NCBI RefSeq assembly: GCF_006864135.1
Contig: NZ_SADV01000010.1
Coordinates: 1 to 64,000, forward strand
Origin: Lysinibacillus sphaericus
GTDB taxonomy: Bacteria > Bacillota > Bacilli > Bacillales_A > Planococcaceae
Length of the DNA stretch: 64,000 nucleotides
Direction: 5' to 3'
Position 1 is the first letter of the stretch; every line of letters begins with the position of its first letter. Below, piece by piece: positions 4,410-59,280 of this stretch. The translations under genes were made by a program, and so were the position numbers. The notes beneath the pieces were generated by a model, which saw only the letters and a program-made list of their open reading frames with translations, searched no databases and was not told the origin of the DNA.

Positions 4410-6068
4410 ATGATGTATGATGTAGCAATTGTCGGTGCAGGACTGGCAGGGTTAGTAGCTGCCTGTGAGTTAGCAGATGCAAAGAAAAAAATTGTTTTAG
4501 TAGATCAAGAACCTGAAAATTCAATGGGAGGACAGGCGTTCTGGTCCTTTGGAGGTATATTTTTAGTAAATTCACCCGAGCAAAGAAGGCTTGGTATTAA
4601 GGATAGTAAAGAGCTTGCGTGGCAAGATTGGCAAGGAACCGCTGGCTTTGATCGCTTGGAGGATGAAGATTCGTGGGCGTATAAATGGGCCAAAGCTTAT
4701 GTTGAATTTGCAGCTGGTGAAAAATATAGTTGGTTAAAGTCTATAGGTATTAAGTTTTTCCCTGTCGTCGGTTGGGCAGAACGTGGTGGATCATTAGCAG
4801 GCGGCCACGGAAATTCGGTTCCTAGATTTCATGTTGTTTGGGGAACTGGGCCAGGCATTGTAAAGCCTTTTGCTGAAAAAGTGAAAAAGGCCATAAAGGA
4901 TGGATATATAGATTTTAAACCAAGACATCGAGTAGATGAGTTTATTCAACAAGATGGAAGGATTACAGGGATTAGTGGAACAGTGTTGGCTGAAAGCTAT
5001 GCAATTCGCGGTGAAAAAAGCTCTAGGCTAGGTATTGGCGAATTTTCTTATGAAGCGGGAGCGGTTATTGTGGCGAGCGGTGGGATAGGGGCAAATTTTG
5101 ATTTAATCAGAAAAAATTGGCCTGCTCGACTAGGTACACCACCCAAAAATATGGTCAGTGGTGTACCTGCTTATGTAGATGGCAGAATGTTAGAAATTAC
5201 TGAGCATGCGGGAGGACGTATCGTTAATCGAGACCGCATGTGGCATTATACAGAAGGCTTGAAAAATTGGGACCCTATTTGGCCAAATCACGGCATTCGA
5301 ATTTTGCCTGGCCCTTCTTCATTATGGTTTGATGCAGAAGGCAATCGATTTGGAGCACCAAATTTTCCGGGTTTTGATACGTTAAGCACATTAGAGGCAA
5401 TTCAAAAAACAGGTTATGATTACTCCTGGTTTATTTTAACTGAAAAAATTATTGAAAAAGAATTTGCATTATCAGGCTCTGAACAAAATCCTGATTTAAC
5501 AAATAAAAGTATTCGTGATGTTCTGAAACGTGTTTTGCCAGGAGCGCCAGGTCCAATTCAGGCATTTAAAAATCATGGTGAGGATTTTGTGATTGCTAAT
5601 GATTTAAAGGATTTAGTTGCAGGGATGAACAAGCTGGCTGGCAATGATCTTCTTGATTTTATCAAAATTAAAGAGCAAATTTTAGCAAGGGATCGTGAAA
5701 TGGACAATAAATTTACAAAAGACTTACAGGTTAATGCTATTCATGGCGCAAGAAACTATGTTGGTGATAAATTTGTGCGCGTTGCGAAGCCTCATAAAAT
5801 ATTAGATCCCCAAAATTGGCCCCTTATTGCGGTACGTTTAAATATTTTAACGCGTAAAACATTAGGAGGCTTACAGACAAATTTGAATGGTGCAGTGTTA
5901 GGAATAAATAATCAGCCTGTACCGGGTTTATTTGCAGCTGGGGAAGTTAGTGGTTTTGGCGGTGGCGGCGTACATGGTTACCGTGCTTTAGAAGGGACAT
6001 TTGTTGGTGGTTGTTTATTTAGTGGCCGACAGGTAGGGCGTTACTTAGCTAAAGGGGTGCTCGGGTAA
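4410..6068 (+). CDS. FAD-binding dehydrogenase (3-ketosteroid dehydrogenase / fumarate reductase flavoprotein family)
   Basis: 552-residue flavoprotein. The N-terminus has a dinucleotide-binding fold (VAIVGAGLAGLVAA, residues 5-18, then VDQEPEN) and the C-terminus the second FAD-binding segment (GLFAAGEVSGFGGGGVHGYR). Length and pattern fit the FAD-binding-2 family, often called KsdD-like in Bacillales, but the substrate is unknown and the steroid name should not be taken literally. GGGGG at 4399-4403 precedes tandem ATGs at 4410 and 4413. The gene stands alone. Its last codons and stop fall inside a 21-bp periodic array (6055-6138), so the extreme C-terminus may have been supplied by that repeat. 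Confidence 0.85.
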   Translation: MMYDVAIVGAGLAGLVAACELADAKKKIVLVDQEPENSMGGQAFWSFGGIFLVNSPEQRRLGIKDSKELAWQDWQGTAGFDRLEDEDSWAYKWAKAYVEFAAGEKYSWLKSIGIKFFPVVGWAERGGSLAGGHGNSVPRFHVVWGTGPGIVKPFAEKVKKAIKDGYIDFKPRHRVDEFIQQDGRITGISGTVLAESYAIRGEKSSRLGIGEFSYEAGAVIVASGGIGANFDLIRKNWPARLGTPPKNMVSGVPAYVDGRMLEITEHAGGRIVNRDRMWHYTEGLKNWDPIWPNHGIRILPGPSSLWFDAEGNRFGAPNFPGFDTLSTLEAIQKTGYDYSWFILTEKIIEKEFALSGSEQNPDLTNKSIRDVLKRVLPGAPGPIQAFKNHGEDFVIANDLKDLVAGMNKLAGNDLLDFIKIKEQILARDREMDNKFTKDLQVNAIHGARNYVGDKFVRVAKPHKILDPQNWPLIAVRLNILTRKTLGGLQTNLNGAVLGINNQPVPGLFAAGEVSGFGGGGVHGYRALEGTFVGGCLFSGRQVGRYLAKGVLG

Positions 6069-6140
6069 GACGAGAAAGTGATCAGGTGCCATGTGAAATC
6101 GCTCGGGTACTAAAAATATCTGCTTAAGTAAATGCACAAT
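6055..6140. repeat. 21-bp periodic keyword array 1
   Basis: The four-base word GCTC, or a one-base variant, occurs at 6059 (GCTC), 6080 (GATC), 6101 (GCTC) and 6122 (GCTT), each exactly 21 bp apart. Two units continue with GGGTA. The bases in between are otherwise mostly unrelated. The first unit lies in the last codons of the upstream gene. Confidence 0.6.
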
Positions 6141-6180
6141 TACTACCCTTTACAGACAAGGTAGATGAACAAAAAATATG

Positions 6181-6219
6181 AAAGAGCATCACCACAAATG
6201 GATGATGCTCTTTTTTTCT
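6181..6219. terminator. bidirectional terminator between the FAD dehydrogenase and trhO
   Basis: GAGCATCA / TGATGCTC (6184-6191 and 6203-6210) followed by TTTTTTTCTT on the plus strand and by CTTT on the minus strand. It serves both converging genes. Confidence 0.85.
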
Positions 6220-7190
6220 TATAAAGAGGAATTTTGAACTTCAGCGATTTTAACTATTTGTTCCTCAATCTGCTCTTTTGTCCAACCATTCTCTTCAACG
6301 AAGAAGTTGCGTTTTGCGCGGCGACATTCGTCTGAACAGCTACGCATATAGAAGGCCTCATGCTTTTCCTCGCAAAGCATTAATTTATGGCATTCAGGAT
6401 TTGCGCAGTTTGTAAAACGTTCTGTCGGTTCACCAGTGAAGAAATCCTTGCCGACAATAACATGCTCAACCTGATTAATCGGTACACTACGACGTCGATC
6501 AAAGACAAACATTTGTCCATCCCATAGTTGACCTTTTACCTCAAGGTCTTTAGCATACGTGGCAATTCCACCATGTAACTGACCTACACTTTCCCCATAG
6601 CCTTCACGTTTTAACCAACCAGAGAATTTTTCACAGCGAATACCACCCGTGCAGTAAGTTAAAATTTTCTTATCAGCAAAATCTTCTTTATGAGCCTCCA
6701 TCCAAGCTGGTAGATCACGGAAGTTTTCAATATCTGGACGCACCGCACCACGGAAATGTCCGAGGTCATATTCATAATCATTACGCGCATCAATAACTAC
6801 TGTATTATCCTCCTGCATACGCTCCATAAATTCCTTTGGTGATAAATAATCCCCTGTTATTTCTAAAGGATTGATATCATCTTTTAAACCTAGGTGTACA
6901 ATCTCTCGACGAGGGCGTACATGCATCTTTTTAAAGGTATGCCCTTCAGCTTCATCAATTTTCCACATAATATCGCTAAAACGAGGGTCTGCCTTCATAT
7001 GATTCATATATGCATCAGTTTGCTCGACTGTACCTGAAACCGTTCCGTTAATGCCCTCATATCCAACTAAAATACGGCCAAGTAGCCCGATTTCTTGACA
7101 AACCGCTAAATGCTCCTCTGCGAATGCTACAGGGTCTTCAATAGCTATATATTTATAATAAAGTAATACACGATAGTCTTTCTGTGTCAC
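6219..7190 (-). CDS. trhO: tRNA uridine-34 hydroxylase (rhodanese-family, UPF0176)
   Basis: 323-residue TrhO/YceA family protein. Family members use oxygen to make 5-hydroxyuridine at the wobble position of certain tRNAs. An N-terminal ferredoxin-like domain (about 1-90) precedes a rhodanese domain with the active cysteine in [11 protein letters not shown] (near residue 190), and a cysteine-rich tail ([25 protein letters not shown]) that probably binds zinc. The start is a GTG at 7190, nine bases after AAAGGTGG. It converges on the FAD dehydrogenase gene. The family assignment is firm; the tRNA activity is known from E. coli and B. subtilis relatives, not from this sequence. Confidence 0.93.
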
Positions 7191-7235
7191 AATTATTAAC
7201 CACCTTTAAATCAATATTCGTCCGTGAACTACCTA

Positions 7236-8151
7236 CCACTTAAAACCTAACAGTTTATAAAGTGGGGGCTTCTCGACTCATCGTTGCTTTTAGTAGCCAA
7301 CGAAAACTGATCGAGCTATCCCTCTTGTTCCAAAAGTTCTTTTGTTATACTAACGCTAATAGGCGCAATCCTTCTTGTTTGATGTTGATGGTGGCATTCC
7401 AGTCTCTGTCTGCTACAAACCCACAATCACAGTAGAACGTACGCTCAGAAAGAGAAAGGGACACCTTTACTTGACCACAACAGGACCCGTTTTAGTGCGA
7501 GATACCGTTCAAGACTTGATGAGATGATGAGACGGAATTTCCCGATGTTGCTTTATTTTTACAAGTTTTAGTTTTGGTAATTTGATAGCGCCGTCCAACA
7601 GCATAATGTTTCCGTTGACCACATTGGTTGTATAGGATTGCTTTGACTTCCGATTTTTGAACTTCGGAAATTCCGCACGACCAGAGAAGAAATTGTTGTA
7701 TGCTTGCTGCAAATGTAGTTGAGCGTTTGCTAAGGCAAGGCTGTCTACTTCTTCAAACTCCTCTTTATATTTAGCAGGAGTCGGGAGTTTTTGCCTCTTT
7801 AATGCTTCCTTGTCGTCCTTGAACTGCTCAACCATTTCTTTTCGCTCCGAAAGCATTTTGTTGTAGACAAATCTAATCGTAAGGAGTTCCTCTTGTTCAT
7901 GCGTTGGATACAGACGAAACTTATAGGCTTTGGCCATATCAAATCACCTCACTTCATACCTTATTTTCTAATAAAAGTATTCATGGATTTTGATATCTCG
8001 GAGATATAACAACCTTTCATCTATCTAAAGCTGATTATATCATGCCATGGCAAAAAAAAGAGACTTCTTTAGTCTACACCTAACCGAAATTCATCTACCG
8101 CTTTCACTGGTGCTGTCACCCCTCCACGTTTAGAAGTGGAAGACTTCTTTC
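7236..8151 (-). mobile_element. decayed IS200/IS605-type element with both hairpin ends
   Basis: Each end shows the subterminal hairpin of this group in the same orientation: CCACTT...AAGTGG followed by GGGCTTCT (7236-7272), and CCAC...GTGG followed by AAGACTTCT (8124-8148). Between them lies a tnpB with an internal deletion; there is no tnpA. About 190 bp between the tnpB start (7937) and the right-hand end contain no gene. Elements of this type insert without duplicating target DNA, consistent with what is seen. Confidence 0.75.
7345..7937 (-). pseudogene. tnpB: tnpB remnant, internally deleted (RNA-guided nuclease family)
   Basis: An intact frame from 7937 to 7509 encodes the N-terminal 142 residues of a TnpB (KAYKFRLYPTHEQEELL, then SLALANAQLHLQQAYNNFF and FPKFKNRK). 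After a deletion and frameshift, the far C-terminus reappears at about 7345-7480, including the zinc-ribbon half CDCGFVADRDWNATINI and the end LRLLALV. The intervening part, which should carry most of the RuvC-like active site, is missing: about 590 bp remain of a usual 1,100 or so. The product cannot be an active nuclease. TnpB of this group normally uses a guide RNA from the 3' end of the element. Confidence 0.88.
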
Positions 8152-8265
8152 ATAGGGAAATTAAAGATAGCCTATCAAGTGCTATTTTGCGTAGGAGAGA
8201 AGGAGTTTTCTAAAAAAACACGAATAATAGATAGTGAATGACTATTCATATTTGGGGGTGTTGGG

Positions 8266-9048
8266 ATGGAATTTTCAACAATTACATTAGAAAAATTAGA
8301 TCGCCGTGCAACATTAACATTAAATCGACCACATGCCATGAACGCCATGGACGATGTGATGATGCGTGAACTAGCAGAATGCTTCGAAGCACTACAGCAA
8401 GAACAAGAAATACAAATTCTTGTTATTCGTGGGGAAGGAAAGGTCTTTTCCGCAGGTGGCGATATTAAAGCGATGCTAGATTCAAATAAGCCACTTGATA
8501 TTAATAATGCAATGGTTTATTTAACGCGTATTGTCAAGGCATATTATCAGCTACCGATGATCGTCATTGCAGCAGTTCATGGGGCGTCAGCTGGATTAGG
8601 CTTTAGTCTAGCGTTAGGAGCTGACATAGTTGTGGCATGTGAAAATAGTAAGCTCGCTATGAATTTCATAGGTATAGGGCTCATCCCAGATGGTGGCGGT
8701 CATTTCTTTATGAAGGAACGTGTGGGTACTGTTAAAGCTAAACAAATGATTTGGGAAGGCAAGGTATTAACTGCATCAGAAGCGCATGATGAAGGGTTAA
8801 TTGACTATGTTGCACCAGATGGGACTGTTTTTGCGATTACTGACCAACTAGTCGGAAAAATGCTTGCTTCTCCAATTGCATCGATGATTACGACTAAAAA
8901 AATTCTTCATGCTCAAAATTTACCGCAATTAGAGAGTATTTTATCAATGGAAGCAGCGGGGCAAGCAGCGATGCGTAAAACGGCTGATCATTTAGAGGGA
9001 ATCCATGCGTTTGTAGAGAAAAGAGCACCTGCCTTTGTAGGAAAATAA
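8266..9048 (+). CDS. enoyl-CoA hydratase/isomerase (crotonase) family protein
   Basis: 260 residues with the crotonase fold: first oxyanion-hole element in GKVFSAGGDIKAM (about 58-70), second in HGASAGLGFSLALGADIVVA (about 105-124), and a C-terminal helical part. In place of the hydratase glutamate motif (PGAGG) it has IPDGGGHFF, more like the isomerase and hydrolase branches, so simple enoyl-CoA hydratase activity is doubtful. A GGGGGTGTTGGG ribosome binding region precedes the ATG. It stands alone with a terminator behind it. A role in fatty-acid or related CoA-ester metabolism is all that can be supported. Confidence 0.88.
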   Translation: MEFSTITLEKLDRRATLTLNRPHAMNAMDDVMMRELAECFEALQQEQEIQILVIRGEGKVFSAGGDIKAMLDSNKPLDINNAMVYLTRIVKAYYQLPMIVIAAVHGASAGLGFSLALGADIVVACENSKLAMNFIGIGLIPDGGGHFFMKERVGTVKAKQMIWEGKVLTASEAHDEGLIDYVAPDGTVFAITDQLVGKMLASPIASMITTKKILHAQNLPQLESILSMEAAGQAAMRKTADHLEGIHAFVEKRAPAFVGK

Positions 9049-9096
9049 ATTTAACTATTTCTTTCAGTGGGCGTCCAAAGACCCGCTAAAAGAAGT

Positions 9097-9132
9097 AAAA
9101 AGGCGCGTAGTAAGCTTTTCTACGCGCCTTTT
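9097..9132. terminator. bidirectional terminator between crotonase and yhzD genes
   Basis: Perfect stem AGGCGCGTAG / CTACGCGCCT with A-tract before and TTTT after; works for both converging genes. Confidence 0.9.
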
Positions 9133-9143
9133 AATAGCCATTT

Positions 9144-9329
9144 TTAGACATGAAATAAAATTAATTTACCTGAGGAGTTCACAAGGCGATGAGTTTTGTT
9201 GGCAACACCTTTTTCTTCGATTTGTTGTAGACCGCTGATTTTTGCAGCCTCATCGTTTTCGAATGTCCATGTTTCATCAAATAATGTTTCCCCAGTTTTT
9301 TCAAAAGCTGTAAAACGATAATTCTCCAT
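9144..9329 (-). CDS. yhzD: YhzD-like small protein
   Basis: 61-residue soluble protein (MENYRFTAFEKTGETLFDET...). It looks like the YhzD family of Bacillales, which lies in the same chromosomal neighbourhood in B. subtilis. Its function is unknown. A clear GGGTGGGG site sits before the ATG, and a shared terminator follows. The name rests on remembered similarity and position. Confidence 0.75.
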   Translation of the reverse strand: MENYRFTAFEKTGETLFDETWTFENDEAAKISGLQQIEEKGVANKTHRLVNSSGKLILFHV

Positions 9330-9603
9330 ACAAACCCCACCCTTTATTTAATATATATTCTATTATACATAGAAGATTTATAAACTTCACGGTAAAACTA
9401 GCGAAAATTTCGATAAATTATGAAAGTTGTGGAAAATTTGAGGCAATACTATTAATGAACATTCTTTGAATACATTTCTCAACTAGCGTGAAGTATGATA
9501 AAATAGAACAAATATTCGGTTTCGACGTGATTCACGAATATCTCATTATAAAAATGAGATAAATAGCGGTTGGTAAATTATTGAAGTAATGATTCTAATG
9601 TGG

Positions 9604-9830
9604 TTCATCACCAAAAGTTGTGAATGACTTTTGTTAAAACGTCTACTATGAAATAAGTTGATTGGAGTGGAGGCTGGGTGACTCCTTGGGGATTAGCGAT
9701 AGAGGAACGAAGGAGCTTTGCTCTGTGCGAAAGCGAAGCGTCAGCAACAAATGTTTTCTGTAGCGAAAGCGAAGCGTCAGCTACAAAGCGCCCAGTCGGA
9801 ACGGAAATCAACCACACATTTTGGTGATGA
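9604..9830 (+). repeat. MITE-like intergenic repeat, family 1, copy B (shortened)
   Basis: Core 9657-9812 with GTTGATT/AATCAAC ends. An outer inverted pair, TCATCACCAAAA (9605-9616) and TTTTGGTGATGA (9818-9829), marks the real element borders. The internal hairpin modules of copy A are absent. The phrase GCGAAAGCGAAGCGTCAGC (or near it) is present twice, a small internal duplication. Confidence 0.85.
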
Positions 9831-9918
9831 TCCTCTAATGTACTAAATTATTTACTGCATTGCGAGTGATGAAAGAATGACGACAAGATATAGATTATTT
9901 ATTACTTGAGGTGATTGG

Positions 9919-11133
9919 ATGTCAGCTATTCGTTTTTTTCATATGGCAGATTTACATTTAGATAGTCCATTTAAGGGCTTATTTGGTTTACCAGAACAAA
10001 ACTTCAAAAAGATTCGAACAAGTACATTTGAAGCTTTTGATAAAATTATTCAAAAAGCTATTCAGGAGAAACCTGATTTTTTACTGATCGTCGGTGATAT
10101 ATATGATGGTGAAAATCGTAGCTTGCAGGCACAAAGAAGATTTCAAGAGGCTATGGAAAAACTCTTTCAGTATAATATCCCGGTCATTTTAAGCTATGGT
10201 AATCACGATCACTTAAATGGTGCTTGGACCCGTTTTGCGTTACCGAGCAACGTTTATGAATTACCAGCTGAAACAAGTGTAGTGCAATTAAAAATACGTG
10301 GTCAGCAAGTTAATATTTATGGCTTCAGCTATAGTGACCGTCATATAACGAAATCAATGATTGATAGTTATCCTATTGCACAGGACGAGCATGCGATTCA
10401 TATTGGTATGCTTCACGGTAGTGAAGCTAGCGATACTTCACATGCTGTTTATGCACCGTTCACAAAAGATCAACTTCTTGAAAAAAACTATCATTATTGG
10501 GCTTTAGGGCATATTCATAAACGACAACTTTTACATCAAAATCCACCGATTGTTTATCCAGGCAATATTCAAAGCCGACATCGGAAAGAGCAGGGGATAA
10601 AGGGTTTCTATGACGTAACCTTGTCACAAACCTCTACTGATTTGGAATTTGTACCTACATCTGCTGTTGTTTATAACACGGTAGAGATGGATTGTACGAA
10701 TGTGTTTCATGCAAATGAACTCCTAAAAAAATGTGAAGAAGCACTGATGTTTAATCGTCAAGAGTATGGGGCATCTGTTGTTGAACTGCATTTGAAAAAT
10801 ATAGATGATCAATCACAATCTTTATTTGAACATGCTACAGTTGATGCATGGCTAGAAACAATTCGAGAAGCTGAGGATGGGATTGAACCGATGTGCTGGG
10901 TACAAAAGCTTGTGTTACATCAATCATCCGTATTGTATGAGCATACTGCTGCGACTGAATCGGTGATGAATTTAATGGAGCAATGGGACATTTCTGAATG
11001 GAAGGATATTTTAAAGGAATTATACCAACATGCTGGTGGTGCAAGACTGATCGAGCCTTTAACAGAACAGGACATTAAAAATTTAATGCACAACGCGCAA
11101 GAATTATTAGCAGAAGAAATTCAAAGGGTGTGA
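9919..11133 (+). CDS. yhaO: DNA repair exonuclease of the SbcD/Mre11 type
   Basis: 404-residue calcineurin-like phosphoesterase with all metal-binding motifs: ADLHLDSPF (residues 9-17), VGDIYDGEN, YGNHDHLNG, GMLHGSE and LGHIHKRQ. Such proteins pair with a Rad50/SbcC-like ATPase to process DNA ends; here that partner is yhaN, which follows with a 4-bp overlap of frames. The C-terminal 130 residues are a family-specific cap. It is the first gene of the yhaO-yhaN-yhaM set, as in B. subtilis. The precise substrate of YhaO is not established. Confidence 0.93.
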   Translation: MSAIRFFHMADLHLDSPFKGLFGLPEQNFKKIRTSTFEAFDKIIQKAIQEKPDFLLIVGDIYDGENRSLQAQRRFQEAMEKLFQYNIPVILSYGNHDHLNGAWTRFALPSNVYELPAETSVVQLKIRGQQVNIYGFSYSDRHITKSMIDSYPIAQDEHAIHIGMLHGSEASDTSHAVYAPFTKDQLLEKNYHYWALGHIHKRQLLHQNPPIVYPGNIQSRHRKEQGIKGFYDVTLSQTSTDLEFVPTSAVVYNTVEMDCTNVFHANELLKKCEEALMFNRQEYGASVVELHLKNIDDQSQSLFEHATVDAWLETIREAEDGIEPMCWVQKLVLHQSSVLYEHTAATESVMNLMEQWDISEWKDILKELYQHAGGARLIEPLTEQDIKNLMHNAQELLAEEIQRV

Positions 11134-23224: not shown

Positions 23225-23342
23225 AGTAGAACCTCCTTAAACAGATTATCCTAGATTTTTATTAATAACATAATAGTTTCACAAACTGGATAAACAACGG
23301 TTCAACACTTCATATAAAAGATATTCTAAGCAAGAGTAATGA

Positions 23343-23553
23343 ATTCCCCACGTTCTGGAGAATGCCCTCCGGAAGTGCAGTGAATACGTGCGCACACCCG
23401 GGGGATATCCGCAGAAGTGCAGAAAATAGTCGTGAATCGAAGTGGGATACTCGAAGAGCAGCGGGGGTACCCGGGCACCCGGTGAATACTCCGGGAGAGC
23501 AGTGAATACCCGCGCACTCGGGATACCCGCGGAAAGCAGTGAATCCTTGCACG
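23343..23553. repeat. GC-rich periodic keyword array 2 (about 11 units)
   Basis: The word ATAC (variants ATAT, ATAG, GTAC, ATCC, ATGC, ATTC) starts at 23343, 23362, 23384, 23405, 23426, 23447, 23467, 23486, 23506, 23523 and 23543. Four consecutive units are exactly 21 bp apart; the others are 17-22. Units often end in GCAGTGA. The stretch is far more GC-rich than its neighbours and ends at the hmoB stop region. Open frames across it are artefacts. Confidence 0.65.
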
Positions 23554-23559
23554 CTTCAA

Positions 23560-24078
23560 CTAATCCTCGTTTTCTTCTTTTGGAGCTGCGCTATAGGTTG
23601 TGACATATGAGGCTGCTGAGAAAATATTTTGCTGATTCACACCTGTTGGTTCTTTACGTTCAGCGTGTGCGGATGCAAAGGCTTTTGAGCTTTTCCATGC
23701 TTCAAACGAATGAGGGCCGTTCCATTGTGTCATGACAATGTATGTTTCACTATTTAATGGACGAAGTAGTCGAAATGCTACAAAGCCTGGCTCATCTTCT
23801 ATAGCGCCCGCTCGATTTAAAAAGCGATGTTCAAAAACTGGTCGACCCTCATCTGTAACGGGAATATTGTTGAATACAAAAAAGCCGCGTTCTTCTAAAT
23901 CATTTACTGAATCTAATACTTCGAATTTACGAGGTGTGGCAAAGACAGATTTTCCTTCAGTTTCGTGTATAAGCACAGAGTTCCCTTCTCCGTGTATTAA
24001 AATCATTGCCTCGTTTGGATATTTATTCTTTAACTGTTCTAAAAAATCACCTGTACCAGAAGTTAAATAAATATACAT
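23560..24078 (-). CDS. hmoB: heme-degrading monooxygenase HmoB-like
   Basis: 172 residues with a C-terminal antibiotic-biosynthesis-monooxygenase (ferredoxin-like) domain: HRFLNRAGAIEDEPGFVAFR and YIVMTQWNGPHSFEAWKSSK. B. subtilis HmoB (YhgC) opens the heme ring and releases iron, and its gene also stands beside hemEHY. Here the two are divergent, pairing heme breakdown with heme synthesis. Activity is inferred from family and position. AAGGAGGTCAATTTT precedes the ATG. Confidence 0.88.
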   Translation of the reverse strand: MYIYLTSGTGDFLEQLKNKYPNEAMILIHGEGNSVLIHETEGKSVFATPRKFEVLDSVNDLEERGFFVFNNIPVTDEGRPVFEHRFLNRAGAIEDEPGFVAFRLLRPLNSETYIVMTQWNGPHSFEAWKSSKAFASAHAERKEPTGVNQQNIFSAASYVTTYSAAPKEENED

Positions 24079-28053: not shown

Positions 28054-30951
<2,898 letters not shown>

Positions 30952-38964: not shown

Positions 38965-39031
38965 AACTGTTCAGTTGGAGAGAAGAACTGCTCGGGTACG
39001 GGTGAAAATCGCTCATATGTAAAAAATCACA
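38965..39031. repeat. 21-bp periodic keyword array 3
   Basis: GTTC at 38969, GCTC at 38990 and GCTC at 39011, exactly 21 bp apart. The unit CTGCTCGGGTA is shared with array 1 (TGCTCGGGTA, CGCTCGGGTA), so these two arrays belong to one keyword family 32 kb apart. Confidence 0.6.
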
Positions 39032-39035
39032 CAAA

Positions 39036-39076
39036 AAACAGCAGCTGATATGAGCGTATCAGCTGCTGTTTTGTAA
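39036..39076. terminator. strong stem-loop, probable terminator for yhfH or read-through from yhgE
   Basis: AACAGCAGCTGATA / TATCAGCTGCTGTT, a 14-bp perfect stem, with TT to the right and AAAAAAC to the left, so T-rich on the minus strand. Confidence 0.75.
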
Positions 39077-39448: not shown

Positions 39449-40441
39449 ATGATATTCGTTGATAATAAAGGGATTCATGACCCACGCATTAACCTTGCCA
39501 TTGAGGAGTATTTATTAAAAAAGATGGATGTTGAGAAGGAGCCAGTGTTACTTTTTTACATTAATCAACCTTCAATCATCATTGGTAAAAATCAAAATAC
39601 TATAGAAGAGATTAATACGGATTATGTAGAGGATAATGGCATTATCGTTGTGCGACGTCTTTCTGGTGGGGGCGCGGTGTATCATGATTTAGGGAATCTT
39701 AACTTCAGTTTTATCACGAAAGACGACGGCGATAGCTTTATGAATTATAAAAAGTTTACTCAGCCTGTTGTAGATGCACTTGCAAAAATGGGCGTTCATG
39801 CTGAGCTTTCTGGCCGTAACGACATTTTAGCGGAAGGGCGTAAAGTTTCTGGTAACGCACAGTTTTCTACAAAGGGCCGTATGTTTAGCCACGGTACTTT
39901 AATGTTTGATACAGAAATTGATGCTGTTGTATCCGCATTAAAGGTGAAGAAAGATAAAATTGAATCAAAGGGCATTAAATCGATCCGTTCACGAGTAGCT
40001 AATATTTCGGAGTTCTTAAAGGACAAGATGACAGTCGAAGAATTCCGCCTAGAAATTTTAAAATCCATTTTCGGTGGTGAAGAAAAGATTCGCTATTATG
40101 AGTTAACGGAGGAAGATTGGGCAAATATCCATAAGCTATCTGCTGAGCGTTATCAAACATGGGAATGGAACTATGGGAAATCGCCACGCTTTAACATTCA
40201 AAAAACACATCGTTTCCCAACAGGAGGCATTGATATTCGCTTAGAGGTGAATCACGGAATTATTGAAGAAGTGCATATTTTTGGTGATTTCTTCGGCGTG
40301 GGCGACATGGCAGATGTTGAACAACGATTAGTTGGGACAAACTATGATCGAACTGCAATTGCTGAGGCGTTAACAAATATTGATATTCCAACATACTTTG
40401 GTGGAATTACGACAGAAGAGTTTTTACAATTAATTTATTAA
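39449..40441 (+). CDS. lplJ: lipoate-protein ligase
   Basis: 330 residues. Activates free lipoate with ATP and attaches it to lipoyl domains. Motifs: NLAIEEYLL near residue 15, VVRRLSGGGAVYHDLGNLNF (about 69-88, the RRxSGGGAVxHD signature) and the substrate lysine in GRNDILAEGRKVSGNA. The C-terminal accessory domain is present (WNYGKSPRFNIQKTHRFPTG). AAGGAGGAAACG precedes the ATG. The neighbours yhfH and yhgE match B. subtilis. Confidence 0.95.
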   Translation: MIFVDNKGIHDPRINLAIEEYLLKKMDVEKEPVLLFYINQPSIIIGKNQNTIEEINTDYVEDNGIIVVRRLSGGGAVYHDLGNLNFSFITKDDGDSFMNYKKFTQPVVDALAKMGVHAELSGRNDILAEGRKVSGNAQFSTKGRMFSHGTLMFDTEIDAVVSALKVKKDKIESKGIKSIRSRVANISEFLKDKMTVEEFRLEILKSIFGGEEKIRYYELTEEDWANIHKLSAERYQTWEWNYGKSPRFNIQKTHRFPTGGIDIRLEVNHGIIEEVHIFGDFFGVGDMADVEQRLVGTNYDRTAIAEALTNIDIPTYFGGITTEEFLQLIY

Positions 40442-40488
40442 GAAAAGCTTGCGTAGAAAATTGAGGATTCGAGTTTGACATAATAAAG

Positions 40489-40529
40489 TAAAAGGACTCA
40501 CGCACAATTTTGTGGATGAATCCTTTTTG
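40489..40529 (+). terminator. terminator of lplJ
   Basis: AAAAGGA.TCA..CACAA / TTGTG..TGA.TCCTTTTT; also T-rich only to the right. Confidence 0.75.
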
Positions 40530-40584
40530 GATGTCGATAAAAATTAAAAATTGGGCGATAAAACGTAAAAATGTTTCGATAAAC
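40512..40584 (-). repeat. 21-bp periodic keyword array 4
   Basis: On the minus strand TTTATCG occurs three times, exactly 21 bp apart (TTTATCGAAACATT, TTTATCGCCCAATT, TTTATCGACATCC). TTCATCC, a one-base change in the TTTATC word, follows 21 bp later inside the lplJ terminator. The unit text is close to arrays 6 and 7 at 58.9 and 59.2 kb. Confidence 0.7.
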
Positions 40585-40589
40585 AAAGG

Positions 40590-40700
40590 TAGATGACACG
40601 TATCATGCGGATAAGTTGATGGGTGTGGAAGCTAGGCGACTAATTGGGAATTAGCAATAGAGGAACGAAGGCTAAAGGCATTACGTCCTGTGATAGACGG
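40590..40700 (+). repeat. MITE-like repeat, family 1, copy E left part
   Basis: ATAAGTTGAT, GGCGACTAATTGGG, AATAGAGGAACGAAGGCTAA and CGTCCTGTGATA follow in the order of copy A. After about 40700 the copy is interrupted by array 5. A right-end-like piece (GGACGCCCGCAGGAAAGCGA, then CGGAAATCA) is found at 40905-40945. Confidence 0.7.
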
Positions 40701-40709
40701 ATGCGTGTT

Positions 40710-40760
40710 TTAGCGGCGTTCTTCCTTTGGTTAGCGGCGCAACTCACACTTTTAGCGGCG
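40710..40760 (+). repeat. 21-bp periodic keyword array 5 (TTAGCGGCG)
   Basis: TTAGCGGCG starts at 40710, 40731 and 40752: three identical nine-base words exactly 21 bp apart with unrelated 12-base fillers. It lies in the middle of the copy E repeat. The following stretch to 40995 holds the copy E right-end piece and nothing else I can name. Confidence 0.75.
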
Positions 40761-40882
40761 AATTCCAACATAAGCTGGACAATTTGACTAAACTAAAGTC
40801 AGAGTTGAAGAATATTGTATAGAATTTTACACAATATTAAGGACTTGACTGGAAAGAGAAAGAGAATGAATCGACGGATGAA

Positions 40883-40955
40883 AGAGCCAAAGAAAGCGGC
40901 ACACGGACGCCCGCAGGAAAGCGAGTAGCCCGTAGCGGAAATCAGAGCCTTCTAA
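40883..40955 (+). repeat. right-end-like fragment of family 1 repeat
   Basis: CGGACGCCCGCAGGAAAGCG followed by GCGGAAATCAG resembles the last third of copy A. It may be the displaced right end of copy E or a separate related element. Confidence 0.5.
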
Positions 40956-40998
40956 ATGATTATAGTGGATAAAAATGGTTAATTAGCACACCTGCTAC

Positions 40999-41037
40999 AA
41001 AAGGTTCGCTGACAGTTATGTCATCGAACCTTTTTTT
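40999..41037 (+). promoter_or_regulatory. hairpin with TGACA-N4-TGTCA palindrome before the Bce-type operon
   Basis: AAGGTTCG / CGAACCTT stem followed by TTTTT, with TGACAGTTATGTCA (41010-41023) in its upper part. The whole can act as a terminator or attenuator. The inner palindrome has the TNACA-N4-TGTNA form I recall for Bce-type response regulators. GATACAAT just after may be a -10 box. Confidence 0.55.
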
Positions 41038-46017: not shown

Positions 46018-46335
46018 ATCTTCATTCAGTAGCAGACTCCCACCTCTGAGGTGGTGTGATGGATTCGGGTGTGATTCCATTTTAAGGGATGTCCATACAT
46101 CTACTGAGTGAAGGTAAAGCCTCCGGCGGATGTCACGGATTTACAAAGGAATGCTTAAAGGATGTTAGCCTAAAACCTTCGCATCTTGCGAAAACGGCTA
46201 ACTGACCTGCATCGGTAATAACGCCACGTCCTTGTGGCATTACCGAAATGACCGACATCGTGTCGGCCCTCGTGCAGGCCTGGGCACAATTAAAAATCCT
46301 GACCTCAATTATGCCAAGGCGAAATTGATACGATA
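46018..46335 (+). repeat. hairpin repeat, family 2, copy B (long form)
   Basis: Begins with CATTCAGTAG, which can pair with CTACTGAGTG (46098-46107), then GCCTCCGGCGGATGTCACGG and several hairpin modules: CGCATCTTGCG, GCCAC..GTGGC inside GGTAAT..ATTACC (46214-46243) and CCGACATCGTGTCGG (46252-46266). It ends with CAATTATGCCAAGGCG. It fills the whole gap between the Bce operon and lcfB. Confidence 0.7.
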
Positions 46336-53567: not shown

Positions 53568-53637
53568 AACAAGGATTTGTTATCTTCAATGTCCTGTAGT
53601 GGGATTTGCAGTTAAGTATATATTTTAGTGAAAAGTC

Positions 53638-53683
53638 AAAAATAAGCTATCTTAAAATTCTATTTAAGGTAGCTTATTTTTTA
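53638..53683 (+). terminator. terminator of the EAL-HDOD gene
   Basis: AAATAAGCTA.CTTAAA / TTTAAG.TAGCTTATTT with T-tract. Confidence 0.9.
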
Positions 53684-53703
53684 TGTTTTATACATTATTG
53701 GGC

Positions 53704-53914
53704 TCATCATTTATAGTAGGGGATGACATTTTTTAAACTTATGCCTTGTGTATAGTTGATTGGAGTAGAGACTGGGCGATTTCTTGGGGTCAGATAACAC
53801 CGCGAGTGAAGCGGTGCATTAGACACCCCCAGGAAGCTTTGCTCTGTGCGACAGCGAAGCGCCAGCACGAATTGCCCTGTCGGAACGGAAATCAACCACA
53901 CGTTATGGTGATGA
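53704..53914 (+). repeat. MITE-like intergenic repeat, family 1, copy D
   Basis: Core 53755-53896 between GTTGATT and ATCAAC; outer TCATCA (53704) and TGATGA (53909) mark the borders as in copy B. It contains GCTTTGCTCTGTGCG and the extra hairpin ACCGCGAGTGAAGCGGT. Confidence 0.82.
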
Positions 53915-54028
53915 ACTAAAATATAAAATTACATGTTTCCTTCATCAAGACGAAGTTCTCAATGCGAATACTATTTGCTATAATCATCTCGTATTTAAAA
54001 GATTCTGATAGTTGAAGCGGGTGGGGAA

Positions 54029-54877
54029 ATGAGTCAAATTCGTGGAGTAAGGGAAAGCATTGTAGAGTATATGTACGTCATAGTAGGAGCAGCAATTATT
54101 GCTATTGGCTTCAATGTATTTTTACTGCCAAATCAAGTAGCTTCTGGCGGAGTAAGTGGGATTAGTACAATTTTACACGGTTTATTTGGTTGGAATCCAG
54201 GCTTTATCCAATATGCATTCAATATTCCATTATTTATAGCAGGTGTAGTAGTACTTGGGAAAAAATTTGGAATCAAATCGTTTATTGGAACAATAACATT
54301 ACCGTTTATTGTATTACTAACGAACAGTTGGGGACCATGGACGGATAATCCTTTACTCGGTGCACTTTTTGGGGGTATTGTGGTCGGTTTAGGAATAGGA
54401 CTTGTCTTTAAGGGGAATGCTTCTACTGGTGGCACTGATTTACTAGCACAAATAATTACAAAGTATACCGGCATATCGCTTGGTACAAGTGTACTTTTAA
54501 TTGATGGGATTATCGCGATTAGTGCAGCAATTGTTTTTGACTTAGAGAAAGGTTTGTATGCCCTGATTGGACTTTATGTCACTACAAAAACGATTGATAT
54601 TATTCAGCTCGGCTTAAGTCAGTCTAAAATGGTTTATATTATTACGATGAAACAAGATGAAGTACGTGATGCCATTTATGCCGAGATTGATCGGGGAGTG
54701 ACAAAGTTGCCTGCTATAGGTGGCTATACAAGGGAAGCACGACCAGTGCTCATGGTTGTTGTTTACCAAACAGAATTCACAAAGCTGAAACAACTCATTA
54801 AAAACGTTGACCCATCAGCGTTTGTTATCGTTTCTGATGCTTATGAGGTGTTAGGAGAAGGTTTCAAACGTGCATAA
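54029..54877 (+). CDS. YitT-family membrane protein
   Basis: 282 residues. Five or six N-terminal helices (DUF161/YitT membrane part, with GGVSGISTIL and NASTGGTDLLAQII), followed by a cytosolic DUF2179 domain of about 80 residues at the C-terminus (RGVTKLPAIGGYTREARPVL). The family is widespread in Bacillales with unknown transport function. GGTGGGGAA precedes the ATG. Confidence 0.9.
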   Translation: MSQIRGVRESIVEYMYVIVGAAIIAIGFNVFLLPNQVASGGVSGISTILHGLFGWNPGFIQYAFNIPLFIAGVVVLGKKFGIKSFIGTITLPFIVLLTNSWGPWTDNPLLGALFGGIVVGLGIGLVFKGNASTGGTDLLAQIITKYTGISLGTSVLLIDGIIAISAAIVFDLEKGLYALIGLYVTTKTIDIIQLGLSQSKMVYIITMKQDEVRDAIYAEIDRGVTKLPAIGGYTREARPVLMVVVYQTEFTKLKQLIKNVDPSAFVIVSDAYEVLGEGFKRA

Positions 54878-54928
54878 TTTTGGTATAATGTCGGAGAAAG
54901 ATATTATTTATTTTTAGGAGGGGCCCTA

Positions 54929-55249
54929 ATGAAAAAGGCAATGTTAACATTAGCGATTGGTTCAGCAATCTTCTTAGCTGCTTGTGGCGGAGGTAAAACA
55001 ACTTCAACTGAAGGTTCAAAAACTGCTACTCCAAATGGCGAAACAATTGCTATGAAATCTTGTATCGCTTGCCATGGTAGCGAGCTACAAGGCCAAAATA
55101 ATGCACCAAAAATTAGCGATGTAGGCTCTCGTTTAACAGAAAAAGAAATTTTAAATGTTATTGAAAATGGTAAAGGTACAATGCCTCCTGGTGTTATTAA
55201 AGGTGCGGATGCAGAAGCAGTTGCCAAATGGTTAGCTACTCAAAAATAA
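54929..55249 (+). CDS. cccB: membrane-anchored cytochrome c551
   Basis: 106 residues. Lipoprotein signal with LAAC (Cys near 19), a short flexible linker, then a small class I cytochrome c: heme site CIACH (about 46-50) and axial methionine in GTMPPG. Matches CccB-type cytochromes of Bacillales that carry electrons to terminal oxidases on the outer membrane face. AGGAGGGGCCCTA precedes the ATG. Confidence 0.93.
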   Translation: MKKAMLTLAIGSAIFLAACGGGKTTSTEGSKTATPNGETIAMKSCIACHGSELQGQNNAPKISDVGSRLTEKEILNVIENGKGTMPPGVIKGADAEAVAKWLATQK

Positions 55250-55259
55250 AACGAAATGA

Positions 55260-55291
55260 AACTAGCGGGCTGGAGAACCGCTAGTTTTTTA
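55260..55291 (+). terminator. terminator of cccB
   Basis: AACTAGCGG / CCGCTAGTT followed by TTTT. Confidence 0.92.
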
Positions 55292-55448
55292 TATTTTGTA
55301 GATTTTTTAGTCAGGGCAAACAGAGTGTAAATACATTTCTTTTATACATAGACATGCTAAAATAAGGTGAAACTGCAATCATTAGGCTGATTGCTAGTTA
55401 ACTTAGGACAAAACATATTCAATTCCTTTGAATGGAGGCTACTAAACA

Positions 55449-56384
55449 TTGGTCGTAGTATTAACAAGAGACGTTATGGAGAAATTTAAGTTAGAACTAT
55501 TAGCTGGTGAGGAAGGAATAGGAAGAACGATTGTTACTAGTGATATTTCAAGACCTGGGCTCGAGATGGCGGGCTATTTTACGCATTATCCTGCCAATCG
55601 AGTGCAATTGCTAGGAAAAACAGAACTATCCTTTTTTGAAATGCTGCCTTCAGATGTGAAACTGGAGCGCATGCGTTTACTGTGCTCGCAGGATACACCA
55701 GCTATTATTATTTCTCGTGATTTAGAGGTGCCTAAGGAACTTATACAAGCGTCTAATGAAAAACATGTACCTGTATTTAAAACGCATATGACAACAACAA
55801 AATTTTCGAGTAGGCTAACTAACTATTTAGAAGGTCGCTTAGCACCAATGACTGCTGCTCACGGAGTTTTAGTTGATATATACGGCATCGGTGTGCTAAT
55901 TATCGGAAAAAGTGGTGTAGGGAAAAGTGAAACAGCACTGGAGCTTGTCAAGAAGGGGCACCGCTTAGTAGCTGATGATTGTGTAGAGATCCGTCAGGAA
56001 TCAGAGAATTTTTTAATTGGGAGTCCACCTCCTCTTTTAGAACATTTACTCGAAATTCGAGGCATTGGTATTATCGATATTATGACACTCTTTGGAGCAA
56101 GTGCGGTACGACCGTACAAACGTATCACATTAGTTATCGAATTAGAAATATGGGATCCAGAAAAAGTATATGATCGTCTAGGTTTAGAGGAAGAAAAAAT
56201 GAAAATCATTGATACGGAATTAACAAAGTTAACGATTCCTGTAAGACCTGGGCGTAACGTGTCTGTTATTATTGAAGTAGCAGCAATGAACTATCGTTTG
56301 AAAAAGATGGGTGTTAATGCAGCCGAGGAGTTTTCTAGACGATTAGATGAAGTAATCTCATCAACAGATGAATTGGACGACTAA
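55449..56384 (+). CDS. hprK: HPr kinase/phosphorylase
   Basis: 311 residues. Phosphorylates Ser-46 of HPr and reverses it, the switch for carbon catabolite control in low-GC Gram-positives. P-loop [16 protein letters not shown] near residue 155 and the HprK signature [16 protein letters not shown] near 205. The start is a TTG at 55449 after GGAGG; no nearer ATG fits. hprK-lgt-ppaX order matches B. subtilis, but here a family-2 repeat separates it from lgt. Confidence 0.96.
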
Positions 56385-56399
56385 TCGTTTTTAACTTTT

Positions 56400-56665
56400 T
56401 CCAGCGAGTGTTTTTTGTACCGAAAGCGCAGCGACAGGTACAGAAGTTTTCGACCTTATAGGTGGTGAGATGAATGCGAGTTACTTTTCAGTGGGTGTAC
56501 AAACATCATGCTGAAATAGAGGAACGAACTTCACATCCTGTGAAAACGCCTAAGTGACCAACATCGTGTTGGCCTAAGCCTCCGGCGGATGTCACGGAAA
56601 TCGGAAAGTTCTTTGTACAAGCACAAAGTCGATTCCGGACGCAATTATGCCGAGGCATTAGAATT
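56400..56665 (+). repeat. hairpin repeat, family 2, copy C
   Basis: Contains TTCACATCCTGTGAA (56530-56544) and CCAACATCGTGTTGG (56558-56572), then GCCTCCGGCGGATGTCACGG, a long hairpin (AATCG...CTTTGTACAAGCACAAAG...CGATT) and CGCAATTATGCCGAGGCAT. It fills the hprK-lgt gap. Confidence 0.75.
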
Positions 56666-56700
56666 TTTTTGCAAATGTAATGAATTGAGAGGAGTATAAG

Positions 56701-57522
56701 ATGGACTTGTTATTATTAGAAATTAATCCGATTGCTTTCCATTTAGGACCTATTCCTGTTCGTTGGTATGGGTTACTAATCGTATCGGGTATTATTTTAG
56801 CTTATATTGTAGGACAAAGAGAGGCTGTGAAGAGAGGTTTACCCGAGGATTTTCTTGCGGACTTATTACTATGGGCTGTTCCTATATCCATAATTTGTGC
56901 ACGTATTTACTATGTTACGATGCGTTGGGATTATTATAGTGAAAACCCTGGGAAAATTATTGAAATTTGGAATGGTGGTATCGCTATTCACGGTGCTCTT
57001 ATTGGTGCCTTTTTGACAGCTTACATATTCACTCGTAGAAGAAATATTAGCTTTTTACAAGTAGCGGATATTGCGGCACCGAGTATTTTAATTGGGCAAA
57101 TAATTGGCCGATGGGGAAATTTTATGAACCAGGAAGCTTATGGTGGTCCAGTATCACGTGGATTTTTAGAACATCTAATGCTACCGGATTGGATTATTAA
57201 TCAAATGTATGTTGAAGAATTAGGGACATATGTACATCCTACTTTTTTATATGAATCCGTCTGGAACTTTATTGGGCTCATTATTTTATTAGTTTTACGC
57301 AAAGTAAATTTAAATCGTGGTGAAATATTTTTCGGCTATTTAATTTGGTATTCAATCGGTCGCTTCTATATAGAAGGCATGCGTACAGATAGTCTATATT
57401 TAGTAGGAGATTTACGCTCTGCTCAGATTGTTTCAATCATAGGTATTGTAGTAGGGCTTGGCGCGATTATTTACCGTCGTATAAAAGTAAAACCTGCAGT
57501 AAAGTATTTAGATCATAAATAA
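56701..57522 (+). CDS. lgt: prolipoprotein diacylglyceryl transferase
   Basis: 273-residue membrane enzyme that adds diacylglycerol to the lipobox cysteine of prolipoproteins such as PrsA and CccB in this window. About seven helices; family motifs IRWYGLL-type [35 protein letters not shown] and [22 protein letters not shown] precedes the ATG. ppaX starts 12 bp after the stop. Confidence 0.97.
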
Positions 57523-57534
57523 GGGGTGCAAAGC

Positions 57535-58176
57535 ATGACTGTAAAGGCATTACTATTTGATTTTGATGGTACATTACTTAATACAAATGATTTAATCATT
57601 CAAACATTTATGCATGTTTTAAACGAGCGATTTCCCGGGCAATATTCGCCAAAAGATTGCCTGAAATTCCTCGGGCCATCCTTGAAACAGACATTTTCTG
57701 ACATTGCTCCTGGTGAAGAGGAAGCAATGATTACTAAATATCGTGAATATAATGAATTACATCACGATGAGCTTGTCACTCAATATCCTGAAGTTGTATC
57801 TACTTTAGAGCAATTAAAGGCTATGGGTATCAAGTTAGCGATTGTATCTACAAAACGTAATAAGATGATAGATCGGGGTCTATCTGTACTAGGTGCAAGT
57901 CATTTATTTGACATCCGTATTGGCACGGATGATGTGAAAAATGTAAAGCCTGACCCAGAACCAGTTTTGCTTGCGCTTGAACGTCTTGGTGTAAACAAAG
58001 AAGATGCCATTATGATTGGCGACAATTCTCATGATATTGTGGCCGGGCATAACGCTGGAGTTAGAGCAGCTGGTGTCGCATGGGCTTTTAAAGGTGAGGA
58101 ATACTTACAGCAATTCAAGCCGGAATATATGTTGCATCATATGACGGATTTATTTGAAATTGTGAAAGCGGGGTAA
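57535..58176 (+). CDS. ppaX: pyrophosphatase PpaX (HAD family)
   Basis: 213-residue HAD phosphatase: nucleophile motif LLFDFDGTLLNTND (Asp near 9), LAIVSTKRN, and GDNSHDIVAG. PpaX hydrolyses pyrophosphate released when HprK dephosphorylates HPr, which fits its place in the hprK cluster. ATG 57535 lies after AAGGGGTG. Confidence 0.93.
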   Translation: MTVKALLFDFDGTLLNTNDLIIQTFMHVLNERFPGQYSPKDCLKFLGPSLKQTFSDIAPGEEEAMITKYREYNELHHDELVTQYPEVVSTLEQLKAMGIKLAIVSTKRNKMIDRGLSVLGASHLFDIRIGTDDVKNVKPDPEPVLLALERLGVNKEDAIMIGDNSHDIVAGHNAGVRAAGVAWAFKGEEYLQQFKPEYMLHHMTDLFEIVKAG

Positions 58177-58180
58177 GTAA

Positions 58181-58723
58181 ATGGCACGTAAAACAGAACG
58201 CTACCGTGTCGAAGGAGCGAACTCGCTTTGGAATATTTATGATACGGTGTCCTTTTGGAAAGTGATGAAGTGTTTCGTTGTCATTCAAATTGGACGCTTC
58301 ACACCATTTTTACGTGTGAAAAACTGGCTGTATCGATCTTTTTTAAAGATGGAGATTGGTGACCAAACTTCCATAGCTTTAATGGTGATGCCAGATACAA
58401 TGTTTCCAGAACGTATTCATATCGGTGATAATACCGTTATAGGCTTCAGTACGACTATTTTGGCGCATGAATATTTAATAGAGGAATATCGCCTTGGAGA
58501 TGTTCATATTGGCAATGAAGTGATGGTTGGCGCCAATTCAACGATACTACCAGGTGTTACGATAGGTGACGGTGCGATTGTGTCAGCTGCAACCCTTGTG
58601 CATAAGGATGTGCCAGCTGGCTGTCTAGCAGGCGGTAATCCTATGCAAATAATTTATACAGCTGAACAAATGGCGGAGCGCAAACGCAATGAAGTAGTGG
58701 AATGGTGCACGCCGAAAAAATAA
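58181..58723 (+). CDS. yvoF: hexapeptide-repeat acyltransferase
   Basis: 180 residues. N-terminal helical part followed by left-handed beta-helix repeats (IHIGDNTVIGFSTTILAHEY, VHIGNEVMVGANSTILPGVT, IGDGAIVSAATLV), as in acetyltransferases of the maltose/galactoside O-acetyltransferase type. In B. subtilis the similar yvoF follows ppaX. The acceptor is unknown. It begins four bases after ppaX. Confidence 0.9.
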   Translation: MARKTERYRVEGANSLWNIYDTVSFWKVMKCFVVIQIGRFTPFLRVKNWLYRSFLKMEIGDQTSIALMVMPDTMFPERIHIGDNTVIGFSTTILAHEYLIEEYRLGDVHIGNEVMVGANSTILPGVTIGDGAIVSAATLVHKDVPAGCLAGGNPMQIIYTAEQMAERKRNEVVEWCTPKK

Positions 58724-58730
58724 TAACATC

Positions 58731-58765
58731 TAAACTGTGCATGCTTTACTGTGCACAGTTTTTTT
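58731..58765 (+). terminator. terminator of the hprK-lgt-ppaX-yvoF cluster
   Basis: AAACTGTGCA / TGTGCACAGTTT followed by TTTT. Confidence 0.88.
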
Positions 58766-58799
58766 GTTGAAAACAATTGTAACAATGAAATTAAAGTAG

Positions 58800-58937
58800 G
58801 ACTCTCCGGCAAAAAGAGGAGTTGAATTTCCGTCCCGACTGGGCGCTTTATCGCTGCCGCTTCGCTTTCGCGCAGATAAAACATTTGTCGCTACCGCTTC
58901 GCTTTCGCACAGAGCAAAGCTCCCTGAGGGCGTCCTT
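58800..58937 (-). repeat. MITE-like repeat, family 1, copy F (right half, inverted)
   Basis: GTTGAATTTCCGTCCCGACT and GGGCGC, then two copies of CGCTTCGCTTTCGC, and AGAGCAAAGCTCCCTGAGGG on the plus strand form the reverse complement of the right half of copies A and B. The left half is missing and array 6 begins at the break. Confidence 0.78.
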
Positions 58938-58941
58938 TTAG

Positions 58942-58999
58942 TTTATCGGAACACTTTTAGAATTTATCACCCAACTTTTGAATTTTATCGACAATGTAC
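58942..58999 (+). repeat. 21-bp periodic keyword array 6
   Basis: TTTATC starts at 58942, 58963 and 58984, exactly 21 bp apart, with units TTTATCGGAACACTTTTAG, TTTATCACCCAACTTTTG and TTTATCGACA. Nearly the same text as array 4 read on the other strand. Confidence 0.72.
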
Positions 59000-59068
59000 A
59001 TTTTTGCTAGTCTAATCATGTGCACTTTCGCTGACTAACTACGTTTCTATACAAGTGCGTGAATAATC

Positions 59069-59180
59069 ACAACTTGACACGGAGCCTCTACTCGCATGAT
59101 TCGCTAGCCTAGAACCCAGCTATATCAATGGCTGGCTAACCGATCGAGGCTATCATGCTCGCTACTCCCAGTAAAGTTGT
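59069..59180. other. 112-bp nested inverted repeat (large imperfect hairpin)
   Basis: Nested pairs from outside in: ACAACTT / AAGTTGT (59069-59075, 59174-59180), GAG / CTC, AGCCT / AGGCT and CCAGC / GCTGG. A long imperfect stem without a gene, between yvoF and hisZ. It could be a small mobile element or a structured RNA. Confidence 0.55.
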
Positions 59181-59226
59181 AATATACGAAGGGAATCAAA
59201 AATGTACTTGGTTATTTATTTCAACG

Positions 59227-59280
59227 TTTATACTAACTTTTTAGTTTTATTACCCAACTTCTAAATTTTATCAACATCCA
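59227..59280 (+). repeat. 21-bp periodic keyword array 7
   Basis: TTTATT at 59246 and TTTATC at 59267 are 21 bp apart, preceded by TTTATA at 59227 (19 bp). The text TTATTACCCAACTTCTAAAT parallels array 6 (TTATCACCCAACTTTTGAAT). Confidence 0.6.

Follow-up and report, generated by a model that had tools for sequence, protein, structure and literature searches.

The iterons of plasmid replication origins are direct repeats that lie about two helix turns apart and are bound by protein on one face. Bacterial minisatellites, or variable-number tandem-repeat (VNTR) loci, consist of head-to-tail units whose number varies between relatives, and clustered regularly interspaced short palindromic repeat (CRISPR) arrays join a repeat of about 21 bp or more to a spacer of about 20 bp or more. 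Here we describe dispersed intergenic arrays in which a short word, followed by filler, recurs every 21 bp, and which occur at seven places in a 64-kb stretch of Lysinibacillus sphaericus DNA (the window; 38% GC, start of contig 1 of the 5.12-Mb draft genome G000). The nearest described kind are the STAR elements of Staphylococcus aureus, which have a 14-bp GC-rich word and spacers of 40–44 bp (PMC3532100, PMC5294841).

Both kinds are dispersed intergenic direct repeats of unknown function that combine a conserved word with freer, locus-specific spacers, and both expand and contract at stable loci; STAR elements have one word and belong to Staphylococcus, whereas the arrays described here use many unrelated words, keep one dominant step of 21 bp and are found in the Lysinibacillus family (PMC3532100, PMC5294841). 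Judged from step and words, the arrays do not carry the 14-bp signature with 40–44-bp spacers, the signature itself not having been searched for. No description of such arrays was found in the open-licence papers searched, an absence that is not proof, and the main text of a survey of periodic repeats mentions neither 21 bp nor Lysinibacillus (PMC6344855). With iterons the arrays share direct repeats at integral helix turns; they differ in being dispersed over the chromosome in many copies and in having most of the unit free. They have the repeat-and-spacer look of CRISPR arrays but a word of 7–9 bp, a whole unit of only 21 bp and one word at many loci. Cas1 (PF01867) had no match in G000 while 9 of 14 control genomes were positive; other cas genes were not searched, so that the statement in a preliminary description of the window that these are not CRISPR arrays holds as far as it was tested.

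The 21-bp step stands out in intergenic DNA, genes being called throughout by open reading frame (ORF) length alone. In a sample of G000 (24 stretches of 20 kb picked without regard to arrays; 261 intergenic segments, 104,582 bp), 8-base matches numbered 91, 126 and 54 at lags 21, 42 and 63, respectively; shuffling gave 30 values with a mean of 6.1, the highest being 16. Lags 18, 19, 20, 22, 23 and 24 gave 20, 6, 15, 17, 6 and 10 matches, respectively; the preliminary description had proposed to abandon its 21-bp rule if lag 21 did not exceed these neighbours, and the rule stands. Additional 8-base peaks occur in G000 intergenic DNA at lags 34, 68 and 81 (76, 82 and 84 matches). For the 10.5 kb of intergenic DNA in the window, 7-base matches at lag 21 were 11 against a shuffle mean of 1.3, and lags 36, 37 and 42 gave 15, 13 and 13. 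When 483 intergenic segments, taken from the window and from 40 stretches of which 16 had been chosen for CGATAAA arrays, were scanned for periodicity, 26 segments scored at least 20 (three units) at period 21, and at most two did so at every other period from 12 to 33.

The same step was obtained from the words themselves. The pattern CGATAAA-N14-CGATAAA has 38 exact sites in G000, or 89 allowing one mismatch, and the reversed-pattern control has 7. When the spacing was allowed to vary from 4 to 34 N, G000 yielded 55 exact CGATAAA pairs, of which 37 fell at step 21 and never more than two at any other step; the reversed control gave 13 pairs in total. Over all sequence examined, 21 bp was the commonest step for each of seven words (417/657, 102/160, 16/23, 66/105, 31/53, 87/110 and 10/16 pairs). 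As the helix repeat of B-DNA is 10.5 bp, this step corresponds to two turns.

Array families are defined by words, among them CGATAAA (the commonest seen), GCTGATAAA, TTAGCGGCG, GCTCGGGTA, GACGGAAAG, GGATAG and GAATACCCGCG/CGCGGGTA; the seven sites of the window fall in four of them. The preliminary description had taken the words to be keywords specific to each array, which is correct only in part: since words are common to several arrays and genomes, with many copies each, they mark families and not single arrays. They are non-palindromic, arranged head to tail and conserved across 7 to 9 adjacent letters, and within arrays they differ by 4.5–7.4% while fillers differ by 43–60%. An alternation of units with a period of 42 bp is frequent. 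One ancestral word for all families (pattern AATCGCYGATAAA) was rejected as a general rule, as it reached p ≤ 0.05 in 12 of 55 Lysinibacillus arrays, in 0 of 14 from Psychrobacillus and in 0 of 7 from other genera. Taken alone, the sub-word AATCGCT did attain p ≤ 0.05 in two of the 14 arrays from Psychrobacillus, as did CGATAAA in a single array from a further genus (L249, p 0.05). Relatedness of words is supported within Lysinibacillus only; between genera the words differ outright, not as drifted forms of one word.

Word and filler were also compared between orthologous units. At locus C62, inspected in the 12 best-matching of 32 genomes (G000 included), the unit chain is present in 10 of 11 relatives, the most distant with 77–80% DNA identity, and the words are conserved; this array is old. 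Word mismatches in orthologous unit pairs were 42/945 (0.044) at C62, 7/224 (0.031) at C17 and 5/245 (0.020) at C12, compared with filler mismatches of 438/1890 (0.232), 106/448 (0.237) and 43/490 (0.088). These counts cover all genome pairs, which are not independent, and exclude any unit pair in which less than 8 of the 14 filler letters agreed, an exclusion that makes the filler mismatch smaller. When neutral change was simulated under an identical chain filter, word mismatches of 0.176, 0.178 and 0.080 were predicted for the three loci, above those observed, so the gap is not due to the filter. Compared with the filler, the word evolves 4 to 8 times more slowly; compared with neutral expectation, its mismatch is 4 to 6 times lower. 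Orthologous units with the Psychrobacillus word TTTAGTTG gave 2/88 word and 24/143 filler mismatches at three loci; of 12 loci looked at, four carry this array and eight do not, the fourth carrier having been left out of the count. The array word is thus under constraint, which would mean that something reads it.

In the sample examined, the arrays are nearly restricted to one family of Bacillales. The three-unit CGATAAA pattern, allowing one mismatch, was detected in 49 of the 250 family genomes (G000 included) and in 7 of 19 genera, a count that includes unsorted matches possibly of another nature, such as the 20-unit array of G192 and those of G095; the reversed-pattern control hit three genomes with seven matches in total. 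Outside the family the pattern has one match, in 1 of 56 genomes of the class. We also scanned, without regard to word, 80 named loci of up to 21 kb around the gene for lipoate ligase LplA (window 39449–40441; 98% identity to Lysinibacillus xylanilyticus LplA, the 16 top-listed named matches all being Lysinibacillus). These loci, 54 in the family and 26 outside it, are orthologous and not independent; for the genus counts, five records titled Lysinibacillus were placed with Ureibacillus and one titled Bacillus sp. with Psychrobacillus, a grouping that we assume to be right. The family loci held 16 array segments in six genera (Psychrobacillus 9, Ureibacillus 2, Paenisporosarcina 2, and one each in Lysinibacillus, Viridibacillus and Tetzosporium), and the 26 loci outside the family held none where 8.0 were expected (Poisson P(0) = 3e-4). 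At periods 17–20 and 22–25 the scan found two segments at 20 (Paenisporosarcina, both positive at 21 too), one at 24 (Kurthia) and, outside the family, four (periods 17, 18, 24 and 25). Four Lysinibacillus genomes sampled over 100 kb each at regular places all had arrays (2, 2, 3 and 2 segments), and two of them (G127, G063) had no match to the three-unit CGATAAA pattern. Genomes of one bacterial family thus hold many intergenic arrays of one build, and Rfam names no family on those of the window.

Arrays are over-represented between convergent genes and behind terminators. Convergent neighbours flank 24 of the 75 arrays that have both neighbours available, against 166 of the 1133 intergenic regions that are 150 bp or longer (p 0.0002); for divergent neighbours the counts are 8 and 242 (p 0.03). 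A predicted intrinsic terminator ends within 30 bp before the array start in 27 of 76 arrays; when positions were drawn at random 1520 times within the same regions, the share was 12%. These p-values are optimistic because the 76-array set has at least one duplicate (L135/L150), several orthologues and arrays from stretches picked for arrays.

We propose, with a probability of about 0.5, that the arrays are dispersed head-to-tail rows of putative recognition words for one or more sequence-specific DNA-binding proteins, one word per 21 bp. A constrained short word, a fixed two-turn step, a free filler, the lack of an RNA or protein signal (see below) and chromosomal dispersal together point to rows of such sites. 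Of the three readings offered by the preliminary description, the best fit is with binding sites in two-turn helical phase, given that the word is conserved relative to the filler and that RNA structure is absent; the binding is putative. A protein would bind the word, and the two-turn spacing would be the cause of the fixed step: proteins bound once per two turns of B-DNA would sit on one helix face, as they do on iterons. The arrays would multiply locally through unit duplication and would spread as multi-unit blocks, partly within larger dispersed repeats. As for a role, their position suggests a guess, and a doubtful one: behind terminators, arrays coated with protein might act as a barrier between neighbouring transcription units. 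Likewise unlikely, though conceivable, is a chromosomal system common to the family whose DNA-binding proteins, all of one class, of changeable specificity and perhaps forming filaments, would read rows of words at a fixed two-turn step; genera would inherit the geometry while each lineage rewrote the word, and the ends of transcription units would be marked or insulated by the arrays. Identifying the reader of the word would make sense of one class of noncoding DNA in bacteria, and the combination of a fixed step with free words allows a clean test of helix-phased recognition. Such arrays should not be labelled CRISPR or decayed genes.

Several points weigh against rows of protein-binding sites. 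A tandem repeat inherits its unit length anyway. Deviating steps exist, mostly short (18–20 bp) and seldom long: 20-bp steps account for 41 of 657 CGATAAA/TGATAAA pairs and 30 of 160 GCTGATAAA pairs, and 19-bp steps for 9 of 110 CGCGGGTA pairs. Hardly any steps measure 31–32 or 10–11 bp (3 and 5, respectively, among 657 CGATAAA/TGATAAA pairs; none for the other six words), which argues that the step is a fixed unit and not merely a matter of the same helix face; helix phase alone, which would permit steps of 31–32 bp, was rejected on this pair count. Since the genera use unrelated words, either many proteins or a single one whose specificity can change would be needed. The arrays of window site 40442–41017 are present, by eye, in G000 only among 30 genomes with both flanks and absent in all 29 relatives, from which it follows that no one site is essential. 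Arrays are sparse in places: the word-blind scan found them in 1 of 17 named Lysinibacillus loci and in none of 11 loci of Caryophanon, Chryseomicrobium, Rummeliibacillus, Savagea and Kurthia, and among 20 stretches from other family genomes, some of them short (three), one had an array. Lastly, the bias towards terminators and convergent genes could simply reflect where insertion is least harmful.

In the main rival explanation, transposases would bind the arrays, which would be internal or subterminal sites within short non-autonomous mobile elements, and the words would follow the specificity of these transposases. G133, the richest genome seen, has 222 exact three-unit CGATAAA places, and the first 100 listed fall in 41 loci; among these 100, many loci repeat one unit order (GCCCAAATAG / TGAGATTTTG / GCTCAAATAG / GAGCGATTTTG fillers), from which it follows that blocks of units have spread. 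The TTAGCGGCG array at window 40704–40766 sits within a larger dispersed repeat whose other copies in the same genome are up to 98% identical. Presence is polymorphic at orthologous sites: relatives have other inserts or nothing at 40442–41017 (by eye), and the array of locus C12 occurs in 6 of 15 genomes with both flanks, G000 included, and four of these six have it immediately after at least six consecutive T. On the other side, the persistence of the C62 chain in 10 of the 11 relatives inspected, with its words conserved down to 77–80% identity, is more than expected of a dead insert, and transposon ends are not known to comprise tens of such units. Neither two plasmid queries nor one phage query gave an array match, and the plasmid result also separates the arrays from iterons; carriage by plasmids or phages was rejected on these queries. 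We regard the mobile-element explanation as tentative and on its own unlikely, and both explanations may hold, blocks having spread as repeats and some having then been kept for their words.

Two sets of observations adjoin these loci. On contig 2 of G133, the listed CGATAAA loci number 20 on the + strand and one on the − strand between 1.04 and 2.94 Mb, and 11 and 9 between 0 and 1.04 Mb; the GC skew of sampled stretches switches sign between about 2.23 and 2.80 Mb, and gene orientation may partly explain the strand bias. Hairpin repeats resembling miniature inverted-repeat transposable elements (GTTGATTGGAGTGGAG...GGAACGGAAATCAACC, by eye), with variable inserts, lie at window 9663–9830, 53755–53905, 58790–58930 and 40610–40690, and several relatives have hairpin repeats of a similar kind at the site orthologous to 40442–41017.

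Plain minisatellites, that is, functionless 21-bp tandem units produced by slippage or recombination in which the words are the least-decayed columns, would account for the gain and loss of units. Orthologues differ mostly by whole units, as in VNTR loci, with single units of 18–20 bp occurring; the GACGGAAAG array of locus C53, found in 8 of 12 inspected genomes (G000 included; 31 matched) and absent in four more distant ones, ranges by eye from about 3 to several tens of units, and the 42-bp alternation is common. Without function all columns should decay alike, and they do not: some columns of the unit are constrained, and slippage, which the preliminary description had also offered, leaves unexplained why the word changes more slowly. 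Moreover, many unrelated words share one period and other periods are rare. This explanation, already disfavoured, is improbable.

An action at the RNA level, with the arrays serving, in read-through 3' ends, as sponges that take up an RNA-binding protein or a small RNA, agrees with their location behind terminators and 3' of genes and with non-palindromic, head-to-tail words. RNA structure showed no excess over shuffles (mean fold z −0.14 and −0.19 for the two strands of 76 arrays, vs −0.51 for 70 other intergenic pieces), and the arrays were rejected as RNA-structure elements. GATAAA arrays point either way with respect to their flanking genes, with at most a weak bias (30 with, 20 against, in tandem contexts), and a 21-nt step has no evident reason in RNA, which makes this proposal very unlikely. 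Decayed coding repeats of seven codons, as also suggested in the preliminary description, were rejected and are highly improbable: 21 is a multiple of three and some arrays traverse open frames, but open frames are not kept across units (2.07 vs 2.01 in column-shuffled arrays, 56 arrays; 1 of 56 at p ≤ 0.05) and words are conserved over 7 to 9 adjacent letters.

At the seven places of the window that had been described as a short word plus filler at 21 bp, the words lie where they were reported. Tested as regions chosen by eye with 1000 shuffles each (p floor 0.001), 6050–6165, 23340–23560, 38965–39045, 40525–40605, 40695–40775 and 58925–59005 reached p ≤ 0.005 for three units at period 21, and 59215–59290 was weak. 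The first array (6059–6142, + strand, family GCTCGGGTA) has four 21-bp units, GCTCGGGTA / GATCAGGTG / GCTCGGGTA / GCTTAAGTA (p 0.001 for three and four units). It starts within the final ten bases of ORF 4410–6068, which is FAD-dehydrogenase-like and whose stop codon is contained in the first word (GGGTAA, 6059–6068). The GC-rich irregular array at 23370–23535 (+ strand, family GAATACCCGCG; p 0.004 for three units, 0.085 for two) has ATA words at 23382, 23403, 23424 and 23445 in steps of 21, followed by steps of 39, 20 and 17; for two units, period 20 beats 21 in this region. Another GCTCGGGTA array, of about three units (38969–39031, + strand), gave p 0.005 for three units and a non-significant 0.087 for two, and its counterpart in the syntenic stretch of G156 (L135) and in the named copy of that stretch (L150) has four units.

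A terminator-like hairpin with a T-run at about 40490–40528 (by eye) precedes a CGATAAA array at 40535–40597 (+ strand; three words at step 21, p 0.001 for three units), and the TTAGCGGCG array at 40704–40766 (+ strand) likewise has three words at step 21 (p 0.001 for three units). Two arrays of the CGATAAA family lie on the − strand. The one at 58936–58998, read as TTTATC on the + strand, has three words at step 21 (p 0.003 for three units), and that at 59225–59275 is degraded (TTTATC, TTTATT and TTTATA on the + strand), with p 0.046 for three units and 0.007 for two; it is weak alone, and period 20 outscores 21 in its region.

In G178, a tandem array of GCTGATAAA units extends over about 1.5 kb (L349, 6940–8430) behind a terminator-like hairpin, with steps mostly of 21 bp and some of 18 and 20 bp; the gene upstream of the hairpin is presumably flagellin-like. 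The window also contains three matches to the Bacillaceae-1 RNA (RF01690), at 1721–1787, 46154–46219 and 56515–56572, and a gene for a collagen-like protein at 28054–30927 with about 250 copies of a 9-bp repeat.

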